This document shows positions 8,982 through 24,984 of a DNA stretch of 32,734 nt, in pieces. The notes beneath the pieces were generated by a model. It made no database searches. It had not been told where the DNA came from and worked only from the letters and a program-made list of their open reading frames with translations. The stretch spans positions 1 through 32,734 of the forward strand of contig NZ_MUKN01000044.1 in assembly GCF_001995175.1 (NCBI RefSeq). Reading direction: 5' to 3'. Both the position numbers and the translations under genes were made by a program. The stretch is from Rathayibacter rhapontici. GTDB lineage: Bacteria; Actinomycetota; Actinomycetes; Actinomycetales; Microbacteriaceae. Numbering within the stretch: position 1 is the stretch's first letter; every line of letters begins with the position of its first letter.

Positions 8982-9981
8982 TCACCGCGTCACCTCGAAG
9001 GTCGAGAGCAGCACGGACACGATCATCGGAGCGACGCCCAGGAGCAGGAAGGCCGGCAGGACGCAGACGCCCAGCGGCAGCATCAGTGTCACTCCGAGGC
9101 GCGCCGCCCGCTCCCGGGCGTGCCCCGCGGCGCGCACCCGCACCAGTGCCGCCTCGCTGCGCAGCAGCGCCCCGCGGGCACTCCGGCGCTGGTCGACAGC
9201 GCGAGGACCGCCTCCGCGGCCTCCAGCGCGCGGGCGTCCGCCGGCAGTCCGCTCTCGGCCAGCGCGGCGAGCACCCGGGCGCGGGCCGAGTCGACGGAGC
9301 CCCCGCCGGCGAGCGCGACCGCGAGCAGATCGAGCGCGAGACCCGGAGCCGCCTCGCCCGGGTCCGCTCCGCGCACCAGACTGCGGGTCCAGGCCTGCGC
9401 GAGCACCATCAGCGCCGTTCCGCCGCCGAGGCAGACCAGCCCCGGAACCGTGCCCACGAGCACCCCGACCACGTCGAACCCCAGGAGGACCCCGAAGCCC
9501 AGCGCCACGAGCGGCAGCACGCCGACCACCCGTCCCGTCGCCGCGGGACCTGCGAGCGCCACGTCGATGTCGCGGCGCGCCCGCCCCGTCTCGCGCATCG
9601 ACTCCGCCAGCTCGGTCAGCGCCGCCGCGACCGGTGCGCCGGAGTCGGCGGCCACTCTCCAGCAGGCGGCGAGGGACGCCCAGGCCGTCGCCTCACCGCC
9701 GTCGCTCGTCGACCGGCGCACCCTCCTGCGCACTCCGGACCGACGCGACGCCGGGACCCCGCGCAGGAGGGCCTCGGTCGCATCGCCGCCGCGGGCCGCC
9801 TCGAGCGCGACCGAGCGGAGGAGCCGCCTGCGTCGCGCCGCCCCCGACGACCCCTGCGCCTCCCCCGCACCTGCGTCGGCGAGATGGCCGAGCGCCGAGG
9901 CCGGAGCGACCCCGCGGCGAGCAGGACCGACAGCCGGTGCACGACGGCCGCGACCTCGTCCAGGCCGTCCGCGCCCCTCAC
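8982..9981 (-). CDS. TadB/TadC-type type II secretion F-domain membrane protein (two single-base frame breaks)
   Basis: The inner-membrane platform of the Tad machine. The frame from GTG at 9979-9981 (GTGA overlap with cpaF) breaks at the C-run 9910-9913 and again at 9170-9173. Adding one base at each gives 1002 nt, 333 residues, ending at the TGA overlapped by the downstream GTG. The repaired protein has a cytoplasmic helical T2SSF segment (AACWRVAADSGAPVAAAL...) and two membrane helices (GRVVGVLPLVALGFGVLLGF onward). A second T2SSF segment (APGLALDLLAVALAGG...) follows, then a last pair of helices ending in VAPMIVSVLLSTFEV. The halves correspond to TadB and TadC, encoded here as one protein. 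Both breaks are in homopolymers, so error is likelier than loss. Confidence 0.85.
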
Positions 9982-11018
9982 GGCACCGCCCGCGCCCGAG
10001 CCGGCAGCGTCCCCTCGGCGATCCGCAGACGCCCGGAGTCGTCGAGAGCGAAGCACCCCCACGAGGCGAGCCTGCGGCGCCCGCCCCGGCGCTCGAGGTG
10101 CAGCACGAGATCGAGTGCGCTGACCGCTTGGCGTGCGACGGCGTCCGGCCCCATCCCCGCCAGTGCGCCGAGCGCCTCGAGCCGCGACGGCACGTCGGCC
10201 AGCGAGTTGGCGTGAACGGTCCCGGCTCCACCGTCGTGCCCCGTGTTCAGAGCCGAGAGCAGCTCCCGCAGCTCCGCCCCGCGGCACTCGCCCAGCACGA
10301 GGCGGTCCGGGCGCATCCGCAGCGCCTCGCGCACGAGCCGGTCGAGCCCGACGCCGCCCGCGCCCTCGAGGTTGGGCTGCCGCGCCTCGAGCGAGACGAC
10401 GTGCGGATGCGCCGGCCGCAGCTCCCCCACGTCCTCGATCGCGATGATGCGCTCGTGCGGCGGCGCGCTCCCCAGCAGCGCTCCGAGCAGAGTCGTCTTG
10501 CCGGACCCGCCCGCCCCCGAGACGAGCAGGTTCCACCGCGAGGCGACCGCTCGGCGCAGGAGCGCCCGACCTGCGTCGTCCACCATCCCCGCCGCGTGGA
10601 GCTGGTCGAGGCTCCACGCCTCGGCCCGCGGGACGCGCACCGAGATCAGCGCCCCCGCGGTGGCCACCGGAGGGAGCACCACGTGCACGCGGACGCCGTG
10701 ACGCAGCCGCACGTCGACGCAGGGACTCGCCTCGTCGACGTGCCGTCCTCCCGCGGCGACCAGGGACACGGCCAGACGCCGAGCACCCGTCGCATCGAGC
10801 GACCAGGTCGGATCCCGCACCGCCCCCTGGCCGCGGTCGACCCAGAGGCCGGCTCCGCCGTTGACGAAGAGGTCGGTGACAGCCGGATCGTCGGCGAAGG
10901 GCGCCAGGAGGCCGAGGGCGACCGCTCCCGGTCGGACCCGGGGCGGGGGCGGCGCAGCGGGAGCAGGAGGATCCCGGCGGAACTCGGCGGGGACGAGGGG
11001 CACGAAGTCGGCGATCAT
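9978..11018 (-). CDS. tadA: Tad/CpaF family pilus assembly ATPase
   Basis: A 346-residue cytosolic secretion ATPase that powers Flp-type pilus assembly. A Pro-rich N-terminus is followed by the CpaF N-domain (VTDLFVNGG..WVDRG, about 47-62). Next come Walker A SGAGGSGKTT (Lys174), the Asp box (IEDVGEL, 194-200), a Walker B-like VLGECRG (241-247) and a His box with GTVHAN (about 269-274). All catalytic elements are intact. It is the first gene of the Tad operon and is followed by the F-domain protein with a 4-bp overlap. The start ATG at 11016-11018 lies 167 bp downstream of the 6C RNA terminator. The order equals mycobacterial Rv3659c to Rv3654c. Confidence 0.93.
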   Translation of the reverse strand: MIADFVPLVPAEFRRDPPAPAAPPPPRVRPGAVALGLLAPFADDPAVTDLFVNGGAGLWVDRGQGAVRDPTWSLDATGARRLAVSLVAAGGRHVDEASPCVDVRLRHGVRVHVVLPPVATAGALISVRVPRAEAWSLDQLHAAGMVDDAGRALLRRAVASRWNLLVSGAGGSGKTTLLGALLGSAPPHERIIAIEDVGELRPAHPHVVSLEARQPNLEGAGGVGLDRLVREALRMRPDRLVLGECRGAELRELLSALNTGHDGGAGTVHANSLADVPSRLEALGALAGMGPDAVARQAVSALDLVLHLERRGGRRRLASWGCFALDDSGRLRIAEGTLPARARAVP

Positions 11019-11185
11019 CCGGGCACGCTAGGCGCGACCGCCCGTGCCCCGCCGGAGCAGCAGCCCGAGAGGTGGAGGCTCCCGCGAACTGGAGCCTGGG
11101 GAGGAATGACCGGAAGCCGTCGGCACTCGTCCGCGAGCCCGGGGCTCCAGCGGCGACCACGACCCGGAGGACTGCACGGGCCGTT

Positions 11186-11286
11186 AAAAGAAGGGGGCGG
11201 CACCCATTGGGGGGAACAGGTGCCGCCTCGGCGGCGCGGGATTGGGGGGAATCACATGCGCCGCTGAGCCGAAGTTCATTCGGCCG
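11186..11286 (-). ncRNA. 6C small RNA
   Basis: On the minus strand two hairpins each display six consecutive C in the loop, the defining feature of the actinobacterial 6C RNA. Hairpin 1 pairs 11258-11264 with 11231-11237 (7 bp; C6 at 11244-11249). Hairpin 2 pairs 11219-11227 with 11196-11204 (9 bp, arm GGCGGCACC; C6 at 11209-11214). It is followed by CCCTTCTTTT, an intrinsic terminator ending near 11186. A small 5' hairpin (GCCGAA/TTCGGC) precedes them. The 5' end is inferred from the promoter. Mycobacterial 6C (B11) also lies beside the Tad-like locus. Known 6C RNAs pair their C-rich loops with G-rich ribosome-binding sites. The surrounding gene-free stretch 11019-11473 shows nothing else beyond the promoters listed. 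Confidence 0.88.
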
Positions 11287-11292
11287 TATGTA

Positions 11293-11321
11293 AGAGTACG
11301 TGACCGCGCCCGAAACTCCAA
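11293..11321 (-). promoter_or_regulatory. Promoter of the 6C RNA
   Basis: TTGGAG (minus strand, 11316-11321) and TACTCT (11293-11298) are separated by 17 bp and would start transcription near 11286, just before the 5' hairpin of the RNA. This is among the better -35/-10 pairs in the window. Confidence 0.55.
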
Positions 11322-11473: not shown

Positions 11474-13479
11474 ATGACCACTCCCCCCGACGACGTCGTG
11501 ATCCCGGGTTCCGAGACCATCGACAACCTCCTCCACGAGACGCGCCGGTTCCCTCCTCCCGCCGACTTCGCGCACGGAGCCGTCGCCACGGCCGACCTCT
11601 ACGACGAGGCGGCCGCCGACCGTCTCGCGTTCTGGGCCGCGCGCAGCCGCGAGCTGCTGCACTGGCACCGCCCGTTCACGCGCACCCTGGACTGGAGCGA
11701 GCCGCCCTTCGCGAAGTGGTTCGACGACGGCGAGCTGAACATCGCCTACAACTGCCTCGACCGCCATGTGCTCGCCGGTCACGGCGACCGCGTCGCGATC
11801 CACTGGGAGGGCGAGCCCGGCGACACGCGCACCCTCACCTACGCGCAGCTCACCGCCGAGGTGAAGCGCGCCGCCAACCTGTTGACCAGCCTCGGCGTGC
11901 ACGCGGGCGACCGGGTCGCGATCTACCTCCCGATGATCCCGGAGGCGGTCGTCTCGATGCTCGCCGTCGCGCGCATCGGAGCGGTCCACTCCGTCGTCTT
12001 CGGCGGCTTCAGCGCCGAGAGCCTGAGGGCGCGCATCGACGACGCCGAGGCGAAGCTCGTCATCACCGCCGACGGCGGCTGGCGCAAGGGCGCGGTCTTC
12101 CCGCTCAAGCCCGCGGTCGACGCCGCCCTGGCGATCGGCGGCGACGACTCCCCCTCGACCGTCGAGCACGTGCTCGTCGTGCAGCGCGGCGGCAACGCGG
12201 TCGACTGGAGCGAGGGGCGCGACCTCTGGTGGCACGAGGAGGTCGTCGCGGTCGACGCCGACCACACGGCCCGCGCGTTCCCCGCCGAGCAGCCCCTCTT
12301 CATCCTGTACACGAGCGGCACGACCGGGAAGCCGAAGGGCATCCTGCACACCAGCGGCGGCTACCTCACGCAGGTGGCCTACACGCACCGCGCGGTGTTC
12401 GACCTGCACCCCGAGACCGACGTGTACTGGTCGACCGCGGATGTCGGCTGGATCACCGGGCACAGCTACGTCGTCTACGGGCCGCTCGCCAACGGAGCGA
12501 CGCAGGTGATGTACGAGGGCACCCCCGACACCCCGCACACCGGCCGCTGGTGGGAGATCGTCGAGAAGTACGGCGTGACGATCCTCTACGCCGCGCCCAC
12601 GGCGATCCGCTCGTTCATGAAGCTGGGCCGGCAGATCCCGCAGCGCTTCGACCTCTCGAGCCTCCGGCTGCTCGGGTCGGTCGGCGAGCCGATCAACCCG
12701 GAGGCGTGGGTCTGGTACCGCGACGTCATCGGCGGCGGCCGCACGCCCATCGTCGACACGTGGTGGCAGACCGAGACCGGCGCGATCATGGTGTCGCCGC
12801 TCCCGGGCGTCACGACGCTCAAGCCCGGTTCGGCCCAGGTGCCGCTGCCCGGCGTCTCGATCGACGTCGTCGACGAGTCCGGCCGCTCGGTCGGCCAGGA
12901 CTCGGGCGGCCTGCTCGTGATCACCGAGCCGTGGCCCGCGATGCTGCGCGGCATCTGGGGCGATCCCGAGCGCTACGTCGAGACCTACTGGTCGAAGTTC
13001 GGCGACCGGTACTTCGCCGGCGACGGCGCCCGCCGGGACCGCGACGGCGACCTCTGGCTGCTCGGCCGCGTCGACGACGTGATGAACGTGTCGGGGCACC
13101 GGCTCTCGACCGCCGAGATCGAATCCGCGCTCGTCTCGCACCCGGTCGTCGCCGAGGCCGCGGTCGTCGGCGCGGCGGACGAGGCGACCGGCCAGGCCGT
13201 CGTCGCGTTCGTCATCGCCAAGGCGAGCCAGGCGGAGTCGCTGGCGGGCGCCACGACGAGCTCGTGGCGACCCTGAAGGCGCACGTCGCCGAGCACATCG
13301 GAGCGATCGCCCGCCCGAAGCGGATCCTGATCGTGCAGGAGCTGCCCAAGACCCGCTCGGGGAAGATCATGCGGCGCCTGCTGCGCGACGTGGCGGAGGG
13401 GCGGGCCGTCGGCGACACGACGACGCTCGCCGACACGCAGGTCATGGCCGTCATCTCGTCCGCGATCGCGGCGGAGTGA
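11474..13479 (+). CDS. acs: Acetyl-CoA synthetase (AMP-forming), frame broken near the C-terminus
   Basis: Activates acetate to acetyl-CoA through acetyl-AMP. The ATG at 11474 follows AAGGAG. The Acs N-terminal domain ([20 protein letters not shown]) leads to the P-loop-like [12 protein letters not shown] (about 277-288), WWQTETG, and hinge-region [15 protein letters not shown]. At about 13246-13252 the frame shifts and would stop at 13276. One added base continues directly into [17 protein letters not shown] and the C-terminal catalytic-lysine motif [10 protein letters not shown]. 2006 nt plus one base gives 668 residues, normal for the family. Without the last part the enzyme would lack the acetylatable catalytic Lys. 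A sequencing error (CC for CCC or a lost G) is the likeliest explanation. The gene is convergent with ridA. Confidence 0.92.
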
Positions 13480-22270: not shown

Positions 22271-23440
22271 TCATGGGTGCACCCCGTCCGGGGTGGGCTG
22301 CTGTGCACGCCTCCTCGTGATCACTCCGAGCCCGACGAGCTCGTCGACGGCGGCGTCCACGGCCGACCGCGGATCCACTCCGTCGGGCGCCCCGCCGACG
22401 TCGGCCAGGACCGCGGCGCTCAGGCGGTCGGAGGGGACGCCCTCGCCGACCCGGCGCCAGAGGGCCGGGCCGATGCCCGAGAGGCGGACGAGGACGCCTC
22501 CGGTGAAGACGAGGACCTCGCCGGCGGGAGTGCGCAGCGCGTCGTCCACGTGCGCCAGCTCGAGGTCGTCCGAGGCCGCGCCCGACAGCGGGAGGGGGAC
22601 GATCTCGTCCCAGACCGCCGGAGCAGGGTCGCCGAGTGTCGCGAACAGCCGCTCGACGAGCCCGAGGGCCTCGGCGGACTCGGAGTACACGAGGCGCCGG
22701 ACGCCGCCGAGCGAGCGCAGGGTCTCGACGAGGTGCACGATCGGGCGCGGCCGCGCCGAGAGGTAGGAGGTCTGCGGCACGAGGTCGTCGATCGCCTCGA
22801 TCGGATCGACCGCCTCGAGGAACGGCTCCGCCACTCCGGGGCGCCGATCGAGCAGGACCACGCCGGCGAGCACGAGCGGCCCGGGCGGCGCGGGCCGGAG
22901 CCCGAGTGCGGCCGGCGCGAGCTGCGCCTTCGGGGCGGACCCCGTCAACGGCTTCACCGAGAGCGGCTTGGGGTACGGCAGGACGCGCCCGTCCACGGCC
23001 ACGCCGACCGTCTCGTCGCTCACGTAGCCGAACCGCGTGCCGAGCAGCCGCGCCATCGTCGTCTTGCCTGTGCCGGAGGCTGCCACGAAGGCGAGGACCC
23101 GGCCCGACTCGTCGGCGACTCCGCACGCGTGGAGCATCAGGAGGTCGCCGCGGCGGACGCCGATGGCCTCCACGGTGAGCCTCGAGGTCAGCGACTCCTC
23201 GAGCTGGGCGACCGTCCCGGCGAGGACGCGCACGCCCTCCCCCTCGACGATCGACGGCAGCACGTCCGCGAGGACGATCCGCTCCTCCCCCGTCGGCGAG
23301 CGGTGGCAGGCCGCCCAGCTGGAGGTGATCCGGTCGACGTCCTCCGACGACAGGCCGTCGCCGAAGACGATCCGGAAGCGCACGTCGAGGACGGAGACGA
23401 CCGTGCTGCGGAGGGCGACCCCCGCCTCGGAGGCGATCAA
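22271..23440 (-). CDS. HPr-kinase-like ATP-binding protein with C-terminal PqqD-like domain
   Basis: A protein of about 389 residues. The middle resembles the HPr Ser kinase C-domain: HACGVADESGRVLAFVA leads into the P-loop AASGTGKTT (Lys126), followed by an acidic SDE triplet (141-143) where HPrK binds metal. The last 80 residues (VLVRLSGIGPALWRRVGEG... to VDELVGLGVI) look like a PqqD-type winged-helix domain that elsewhere binds peptides or partner enzymes. The true HPr-kinase signature beyond the P-loop is not convincing and no HPr gene is near, so the substrate is unknown. The TTG start at 23438-23440 is inferred from a TTGA overlap with the sugar transferase; a GTG 19 codons later is an alternative. 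It sits inside the EPS operon between the initiating transferase and the BY-kinase. Confidence 0.75.
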   Translation of the reverse strand: MIASEAGVALRSTVVSVLDVRFRIVFGDGLSSEDVDRITSSWAACHRSPTGEERIVLADVLPSIVEGEGVRVLAGTVAQLEESLTSRLTVEAIGVRRGDLLMLHACGVADESGRVLAFVAASGTGKTTMARLLGTRFGYVSDETVGVAVDGRVLPYPKPLSVKPLTGSAPKAQLAPAALGLRPAPPGPLVLAGVVLLDRRPGVAEPFLEAVDPIEAIDDLVPQTSYLSARPRPIVHLVETLRSLGGVRRLVYSESAEALGLVERLFATLGDPAPAVWDEIVPLPLSGAASDDLELAHVDDALRTPAGEVLVFTGGVLVRLSGIGPALWRRVGEGVPSDRLSAAVLADVGGAPDGVDPRSAVDAAVDELVGLGVITRRRAQQPTPDGVHP

Positions 23441-24984
23441 TACGCGCCGTCGCGGGCGAGGACGGCGCGGGCCGTCTTGAACAGGATGATCAGGTCGCCG
23501 GTCATGGACCAGTTCTCGACGTAGTAGAGGTCGAGGCGGACGGTGTCCTCCCACGACAGGTTCGAGCGTCCGCTCACCTGCCACAGACCGGTGATGCCGG
23601 GCTTCATCAGGAAGCGGCGGTGCACGTGCGCCTCGTACTGCTCGACCTCGCGGGCCAGGGGCGGACGGGGGCCGATCAGCGACATGTCGCCGCGGAAGAC
23701 GTTGAGGAACTGGGGCAGCTCGTCGAGGCTGAACCGGCGGAGCACCGTTCCGACCTTCGTCACGCGCGGGTCCTTCGCCATCTTGAAGAGGACGCTGTTG
23801 CCCTCCGCGCGCTGCTGGGCGGCGAGAGCGGCGAGGCGCGCCTCGGCGTCGACGACCATCGAGCGGAACTTCAGCATCTCGAACGTCGCGCCGTTGAGTC
23901 CGATGCGCTCCTGGCGGAACAGGACCGGGCCCGGGCTGGTGGCGCGCACGAGGATCGCGACGACGATCAGGACCGGAGCGCTGAGCAGGATCAGCGCGGT
24001 CGACGCGACGATGTCGAACAGCCGCTTGGCGAAGCGCTGGCGCCCGTCGAAGCGCGGGGTCTCCACGTGGATGAGGGGCAGTCCGGCGACGGGCCGGGTG
24101 TGGATGCGCGGGCCGCCGATGTCGGTGAGGCTCGGCGCGACGACGAGGTGCTCGCGGCCGGGCTCGAGCGTCCAGCTCAGCTCGCGGATCCGCTGCGGGG
24201 CGAGCTCGTCGGAGCTGGTCACCACGACCGTGTCCGCGCCGGTCGCGTCCATGACCGCGCGCACTCCGTCGATCCCGGTGAACGAGTGCACGGCGAGGCC
24301 GTCGAGCTCGGTCTCGCCGCGGAGCGCGTCCGCTCCCCCGGGAGAGGTGGAGACGGCGCCGACCAGCTTGTAGCCGGCCTCGGTGCCCCGGCGCAGCTCG
24401 CGCGCGGTGTGCAGGACGCTCGTGCGGGAGCCGAGCAGAACCACCTGGTTCGCCGACCGTCCCTGCTTGCGCTCACGGGTGAGCCAGGAGCGCCAGAGCA
24501 GTCGGCCGACGCAGATGAGGACGACCCCCGCGGGGAAGGCGGTGATGATGTAGCCGCGTCCGAGCTGGATCTGGAGGAGGTAGGCGACGATCGCGACGAT
24601 GCCGAACAGCCAGATCGAGGAGTCGACGATGCGGCGGTACTCGACGTAGCCCGTTCCGATGATCCGCCGGTCGCGGGTGTCGAAGACCTGCAGGGCGAGG
24701 AGCCAGGCGAGCGAGAGCAGCACCGAGACGACCGTGTAGTTGATCGCGAACGCGTCCGTCGTGCGGAAACCCACGACGTCGGAGCCGAGATCGAGGTCGA
24801 ACCAGAACACCTGGGTGCCGAACACGGAGACGAGGATGGCGAGGACGTCGGTCGCGAGGAGCCGGCCGCGGTACTCCTGCTCCCAGGACGACCCGCGCTT
24901 CGGCGTGATGCCCTGCGCCGTCATCGATCCCCCCGACCTCTCCTCGTTCTTCGAACGGCGTTCTTCCGTCTCCGGTGATGTCAC
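23437..24984 (-). CDS. Polyprenyl-phosphate sugar-1-phosphate transferase (EPS initiation)
   Basis: A 515-residue PHPT/WbaP-type enzyme that starts the repeating unit by moving a hexose-1-phosphate to the lipid carrier. The N-terminal half has four or five membrane helices (about 40-180) and a CoA-binding-like Rossmann region (VVLLGSRTSVLHTARELRRG). The C-terminal catalytic domain begins with a re-entrant helix (KRLFDIVASTALILLSAP). It contains LFRQERIGLNG, MLKFRSM, DELPQFLNVFRGDMSLIGPRPP and KPGITGLWQVSGRS. The first gene of the EPS operon. GTG at 24982-24984 is taken, with a -10-like TAGCCT six bases upstream; ATG at 24922-24924, preceded by a G-run, is an alternative. The sugar used cannot be read. 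Confidence 0.93.
   Translation of the reverse strand: MTSPETEERRSKNEERSGGSMTAQGITPKRGSSWEQEYRGRLLATDVLAILVSVFGTQVFWFDLDLGSDVVGFRTTDAFAINYTVVSVLLSLAWLLALQVFDTRDRRIIGTGYVEYRRIVDSSIWLFGIVAIVAYLLQIQLGRGYIITAFPAGVVLICVGRLLWRSWLTRERKQGRSANQVVLLGSRTSVLHTARELRRGTEAGYKLVGAVSTSPGGADALRGETELDGLAVHSFTGIDGVRAVMDATGADTVVVTSSDELAPQRIRELSWTLEPGREHLVVAPSLTDIGGPRIHTRPVAGLPLIHVETPRFDGRQRFAKRLFDIVASTALILLSAPVLIVVAILVRATSPGPVLFRQERIGLNGATFEMLKFRSMVVDAEARLAALAAQQRAEGNSVLFKMAKDPRVTKVGTVLRRFSLDELPQFLNVFRGDMSLIGPRPPLAREVEQYEAHVHRRFLMKPGITGLWQVSGRSNLSWEDTVRLDLYYVENWSMTGDLIILFKTARAVLARDGAY

Follow-up and report, generated by a model that had tools for sequence, protein, structure and literature searches.

The locus and its predicted RNA

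The window is the whole 32,734-nt stretch of Rathayibacter rhapontici DNA that was analysed. It features a predicted small RNA of the 6C family between a Tad pilus gene and a divergent acs gene. The features that bear on this RNA are listed below.

9978..11018, minus strand: cpaF/TadA ATPase, the first Tad gene downstream of 6C (TIGR03819, 391.9 bits)
11025..11030, minus strand: TAGCGT box separated by 6 nt from the cpaF ATG, a putative leaderless-type promoter read from the sequence
11186..11286, minus strand: 6C-family small RNA of about 101 nt, with predicted start and end (Rfam, fold, covariation)
11196..11227, minus strand: hairpin 2, the terminator, with loop CCCCCC at 11209-11214 and a tail to about 11186 (terminator scan, covariation, loop motif)
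11228..11267, minus strand: hairpin 1, with loop CCCCCC at 11244-11249 and UU/AA closing (fold, covariation, loop motif)
11268..11284, minus strand: 5' hairpin GCCGAA-TGAAC-TTCGGC, 5' of the Rfam model region (fold, with weak support in the alignment)
11293..11321, minus strand: promoter-like pair TTGGAG (11321-11316) and TACTCT (11298-11293) with a 17-nt spacer (sequence reading)
11474..13276, plus strand: acs, acetate-CoA ligase, the divergent neighbour (TIGR02188, 861.5 bits)
23437-24984, minus strand: EPS priming glycosyltransferase (PF02397) in which a G tract precedes an internal ATG (24924), a candidate target

The minus strand carries a three-hairpin element that has two C6 loops, together with a terminator and a promoter-like pair. 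This confirms the first-pass annotation, which had described two C6-loop hairpins, a U-rich terminator, the 17-nt spacing and an RNA of about 100 nt; the transcript itself is predicted. The RNA folds with a minimum free energy of -48.2 kcal/mol versus a shuffle mean of -34.3 (z -4.3), and 0 of 200 shuffles equal this value. Hairpin 2 is the sole terminator-like site within the scanned kilobase, where shuffles give 0.2, and the U-rich tail 3' of it reads CCCTTCTTTTAA on the minus strand, with the U run interrupted. A strict sigma-70 scan reported no promoter at the RNA locus; of the 63 Microbacteriaceae rows, 59, the window among them, have a TTG...TANNNT pair with a spacing of 16-19. The idea that the 5' hairpin relates to LexA/SOS was weighed by eye and dropped.

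Runs of GGGGGG/CCCCCC are depleted about five-fold in the window, with 8 observed versus 39 expected from dinucleotide shuffles. Two of these eight runs are the loops of the RNA, which lie 35 nt apart on one strand, and given the depletion two such loops are unlikely to occur by chance. The depletion has two candidate causes, avoidance of pairing with 6C or codon use. The acs frame ends early at 13276 and its last 67 residues match in another frame (13255-13455, plus strand); this break (window 11474-13455) is either a real frameshift or an assembly error.

Membership in the 6C family

The RNA matches the Rfam 6C model (RF01066) with 40.3 bits at 11192-11268, covering model positions 1-75 of 75, with an E value of 0.0005 for 381 bases under permissive settings. 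The same match has an E value of 0.0012 across the whole 3.9-Mb genome and is the top 6C match there. The covariance-model search proposed in the first-pass annotation therefore did return a match, but one that scores under the Rfam gathering score of 47 bits, and a default Rfam scan of the window omits the RNA because of this cut-off. The genome of C. glutamicum, in which 6C is reported to be validated by Northern blot (PMC4046766), likewise has its RF01066 match under 47 bits, so the gathering cut-off was not taken as a biological definition. Structurally, the RNA features two adjacent stem-loops with about six or more C per loop and is backed by covariation in 67 sequences; its neighbours are acs and Tad, as in 6C members above the cut-off. 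The window RNA is a member of the known 6C family in a known kind of place, and its predicted transcription toward cpaF, as in the first-pass annotation, is supported.

The likeness to RF01066 includes both C6-loop hairpins over the full model length, whereas the window RNA differs in its score, in its UU/AA-closed loops, and in an extra 5' hairpin outside the model. The C. glutamicum 6C RNA (cgb_03605) is described in PMC4046766 as about 100 nt on a Northern blot and as reaching 27 nt further 5' than Rfam predicts, which resembles the window RNA; it differs in having runs of eight C, and links to GlxR and SOS are reported for C. glutamicum. The Streptomyces sRNA Scr3202 (RF02833) also has C-rich loops and gives a weak match over the same stretch, but this match is at chance level (22.1 bits versus a gathering score of 52, E 0.5).

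Covariation was determined with 80 named loci collected through CpaF similarity, among which the window CpaF is nearest to Rathayibacter (86% for the top row and 77-80% for the next four). Since these loci were found via CpaF, they show how often Tad has 6C and not the reverse. An automatic rule, which requires a C-loop hairpin of at least 9 pairs, preceded at 22-50 nt by a second C run, at most 1 kb upstream of cpaF, is satisfied by 66 of the 80 loci. Among the 14 that fail, L123 has only 231 nt of upstream sequence, three (L145, L170, L175) are 6C-like by eye, and ten have no C-run/hairpin pair within 900 nt upstream of cpaF. The alignment consists of the 66 passing loci and the window. In these 67 rows, two-sided changes occur at 22 of 31 pairs (14.7 in shuffles) and in 175 cells versus 51.7 in shuffles, which ignore relatedness, and the covariation score is 0.288 versus 0.159. 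The observed value was reached by 0 of 500 shuffles on four of five measures and by 1 of 500 on the fifth. The paired cells amount to 86.7% and drop to 35-48% when the pairs are slid; RNAalifold was also applied to the alignment. Helix 3 (hairpin 1) covaries, helix 4 is nearly invariant, and helix 5 (hairpin 2) is paired in 96% of cells. Hairpin 1 is poorly aligned in the Pseudoclavibacter rows (4) and the Microbacterium-type rows (7), and the 5' hairpin is paired in just 56-69% of cells. The 6C structure is thereby backed by strong covariation in Microbacteriaceae.

A 6C match is found in 156 of 295 class genomes at E <= 0.05 (108 above the gathering score) and in 34 of 296 phylum genomes at E <= 0.01 (16 above it); both searches used strict filters that lose weak matches, and the class count is too low. 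One genus (g3) gave no match in its 9 listed genomes under the strict filters. When two of these genomes were searched again with looser filters, both carried a 6C match between acs and cpaF (41.1 and 34.5 bits). Named loci that share its loop type lead us to infer that this genus is Microbacterium. At the Rfam cut-off, 6C goes undetected both in the window and in further Microbacteriaceae genomes; this under-detection is a new detail. Two genomes of genus g11 feature second 6C-like copies with C7 loops away from Tad (L042 and L044). A second weak match in the host genome (26.7 bits; C8, L102) was rejected as a single long terminator-like hairpin that has no pair of C6 loops.

Gene order and the probable Tad promoter

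Linkage to Tad was examined at 81 loci, comprising the window and 80 stretches around 6C matches that were hand-chosen to span the listed genera. Eight loci were dropped, namely the two second copies (L042, L044), the weak second match (L102), and five loci from other classes (L097-L101), some of which have one or two C6 runs; none of the eight has a Tad gene nearby. In 66 of the remaining 73 loci (66 of 81 without exclusions), ssd/CpaE or cpaF lies on the same strand at most 1.2 kb downstream of 6C. The median distance, measured to the start of the HMM match, is 203 nt (range 94-1111), and the 66 loci represent 21 families and 52 genera. Typically acs comes first, often followed by a divergent HAD hydrolase, then 6C, ssd, and cpaF. 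The Microbacteriaceae loci of this census yielded neither ssd nor HAD, with topA following at a distance of 4.4-4.8 kb; acs is divergent and upstream of 6C in 63 of 63 Microbacteriaceae rows. Mere co-occurrence of 6C and Tad is uninformative because nearly all class genomes (286 of 295) match the Tad ATPase profile. Among the sampled loci the 6C-Tad linkage is class-wide, as the first-pass annotation had suggested for distant actinobacteria.

The exceptions take several forms. In three loci (L050, L051, L067), ssd or cpaF is 2.1-5.8 kb off with genes intervening, and in three others (L080, L093, L095) no Tad gene is present within the fetched stretch. In L062 (G328:C125, a draft of about 150 contigs), the HAD and ssd genes diverge, and 6C lies between them on the same strand as HAD, apparently inverted in place. 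One genome (G327) gave no match to the Tad ATPase profile, in a draft of 220 contigs where absence is not proof, and keeps a 51.6-bit 6C between a HAD gene and an ssd remnant; this remnant is counted among the 66 linked loci. Two 6C copies are present in another genome (G307): one of 48 bits that is not linked to Tad, and a degenerate copy scoring a weak 34 bits some 1.5 kb upstream of the Tad ATPase.

A TANNNT box located 6-7 nt before a start codon is a mark of leaderless promoters. An in-frame cpaF ATG or GTG with such a box is present in 76 of the 80 CpaF-derived loci, compared with 1 of 80 and 0 of 80 in the other two frames and 1.7 expected from shuffles. At a gap of 6 the count is biased by TAG and TAA boxes, which double as the in-frame stop preceding the reading frame; boxes starting with TAC or TAT, 35 of the 76, escape this bias.

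These boxes bear on the proposal of the first-pass annotation that 6C may be read through into Tad. As a leader or attenuator, 6C would drive cpaF by regulated read-through past hairpin 2, and the consistent strand and short distance in the 66 linked loci, the Cis-reg type under which Rfam files the 6C family, and the interrupted U tail in the window are all in line with this. The leaderless-type box that precedes cpaF, both in the window and in most other loci, speaks against it, as do the 6C retained in G327, the flipped 6C in L062, the three loci where 6C is kilobases away and the three where it is unlinked. The boxes, which come from one family, together with G327 argue against the pilus-leader reading despite the Rfam label, and it is judged highly improbable. 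6C is probably not a Tad leader, and transcription of Tad probably begins at a leaderless promoter of its own.

The first-pass annotation had also treated the linkage as unreported, which does not hold, since parts of it are in print. The 6C gene position is reported as conserved between mycobacteria and S. coelicolor (PMC6582537), and the mycobacterial B11/6C, a 93-nt RNA with C-rich loops, is placed by PMC12395582 between Rv3660 (Tad/ssd) and Rv3661, on the same Tad side as in the window. Where mycobacterial-type loci carry ssd downstream and a HAD gene in divergent orientation upstream, the window has cpaF and acs. Extra unlinked 6C copies on mycobacterial chromosomes and plasmids are reported in PMC9569102. 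Among the titles listed by our literature search, none was recognised as testing a tie between 6C and Tad. Partitioning and pilus genes were reportedly noted near 6C when the motif was first described in 2007. Among Actinomycetes 6C occurs widely; the census adds a class-wide 6C-Tad gene order, and what is new here, the linkage census with its exceptions and the leaderless-type Tad promoters, is modest detail.

An operator-like palindrome, TGTCC-N10-GGACA (e.g. TGTCCTCATTTATGAGGACA), recurs in 18 of 63 Microbacteriaceae rows, always at the same position between acs and 6C, and sits just upstream of the 6C -35 box in L118, L119, L132, L137, L140, and others. Among these 63 rows it is not in the window or in the other Rathayibacter rows.

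Loop motif and candidate targets

The reading that we consider likely is that the Microbacteriaceae 6C is an sRNA with its own promoter and terminator that acts in trans via its C6 loops, and that its adjacency to Tad is mainly old gene order. Transcription of 6C would start at a dedicated promoter and stop at its own terminator hairpin, and the two C6 loops of the RNA would pair with G-rich segments located at mRNA starts or close to them. This pairing would lower translation, as in mycobacterial 6C/B11, and the order acs - 6C - ssd/cpaF - Tad would be mainly ancient and conserved and would not reflect a cis leader. We infer transcription in the host strain, trans action, repression and targets, and the mode of action is taken by analogy from mycobacteria. 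In M. abscessus, genes with RBSs complementary to B11 are reported to rise on B11 deletion, and reporter studies in the same source found that either C loop is enough for repression and that escape requires both to be changed (PMC10470900). In M. marinum, the C loop of the terminator is described as the seed, and compensatory changes partly restored repression (PMC12395582). The mycobacterial RNA has known targets, whereas those of the window 6C are putative only. The persistence of the strong 6C-Tad linkage is not accounted for by trans action alone.

Both loops share the motif UUCCCCCCAA. The form TTCCCCCCAA is found for loop 1 in 52 of 67 rows and for loop 2 in 49 of 67 rows, by a script that reads the first two C runs per row and may misassign a few rows. 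The U-A pairs flanking both C loops hardly vary while the outer pairs covary. TTGGGGGGAA, the complement of the whole motif, is found in the genome (G000) solely as the antisense of both loops, and the reversed control pattern has two occurrences there. Plain 10-nt pairing with targets is unsupported given this absence, and an extended seed, in which UUCCCCCCAA pairs in full, is disfavoured, as TTGGGGGGAA does not recur at target starts in G000.

The near-fixed UU/AA closing pairs would also be expected if the C loops form a protein-binding element for which mRNA pairing is secondary. The lack of the full complement elsewhere in the genome fits with this, and the authors of PMC12395582 propose an undiscovered core function, possibly via proteins. 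However, the loop and compensatory mutants reported for mycobacteria support pairing, and the fixed pairs may merely reflect relatedness within the family; a protein-binding element is regarded as decidedly unlikely.

For trans action by the C6 loops, the first-pass annotation had named the leaders of Tad, acs, and EPS genes as pairing partners. In the window, inspection by eye found no run of five or more G close to the start of cpaF or of acs, which speaks against the first two. The same result, together with a leaderless cpaF that offers no leader for pairing and the 6C retained in G327, weighs against the idea that 6C acts in trans and that its linkage is kept because Tad, ssd, or neighbours are among its core targets. 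This idea draws on a linkage across 21 families that, in our judgement made without a control, outlasts expected neutral gene order, and it has very little probability. Genome-wide, the pattern G6-N3-9-ATG occurs at 51 sites versus 21 for the reversed pattern, a comparison in which ATG and GTA frequencies may differ, and most of the 30 sites that were read are not gene starts.

For the EPS partner there is one lead. A G5-G6 tract before an ATG is conserved in 12 of the 13 closest PF02397 orthologues, the window included, a count that leaves out five more distant matches and 12 further ones. In most PF02397 rows, as judged by eye, a GTG lies in frame 20-26 codons upstream after a TAGCCT-type box, though it was not seen in L227, and L231 features an ACG in place of the ATG. 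The upstream GTG and the ACG imply that the tract may be coding, and the glycosyltransferase in the window may start at the leaderless-type GTG at 24984. This gene is the best target lead, a candidate of doubtful status.

In a broader and unlikely reading, the near-identical UUCCCCCCAA loops of Microbacteriaceae would be a recognition element, either for a protein or for a G-tract regulon that includes exopolysaccharide priming, and the locus would tie carbon status, through the divergent acs, to the surface polymer or pilus. The conserved UUCCCCCCAA loop motif is a new detail for the Microbacteriaceae 6C and offers something testable for this family.
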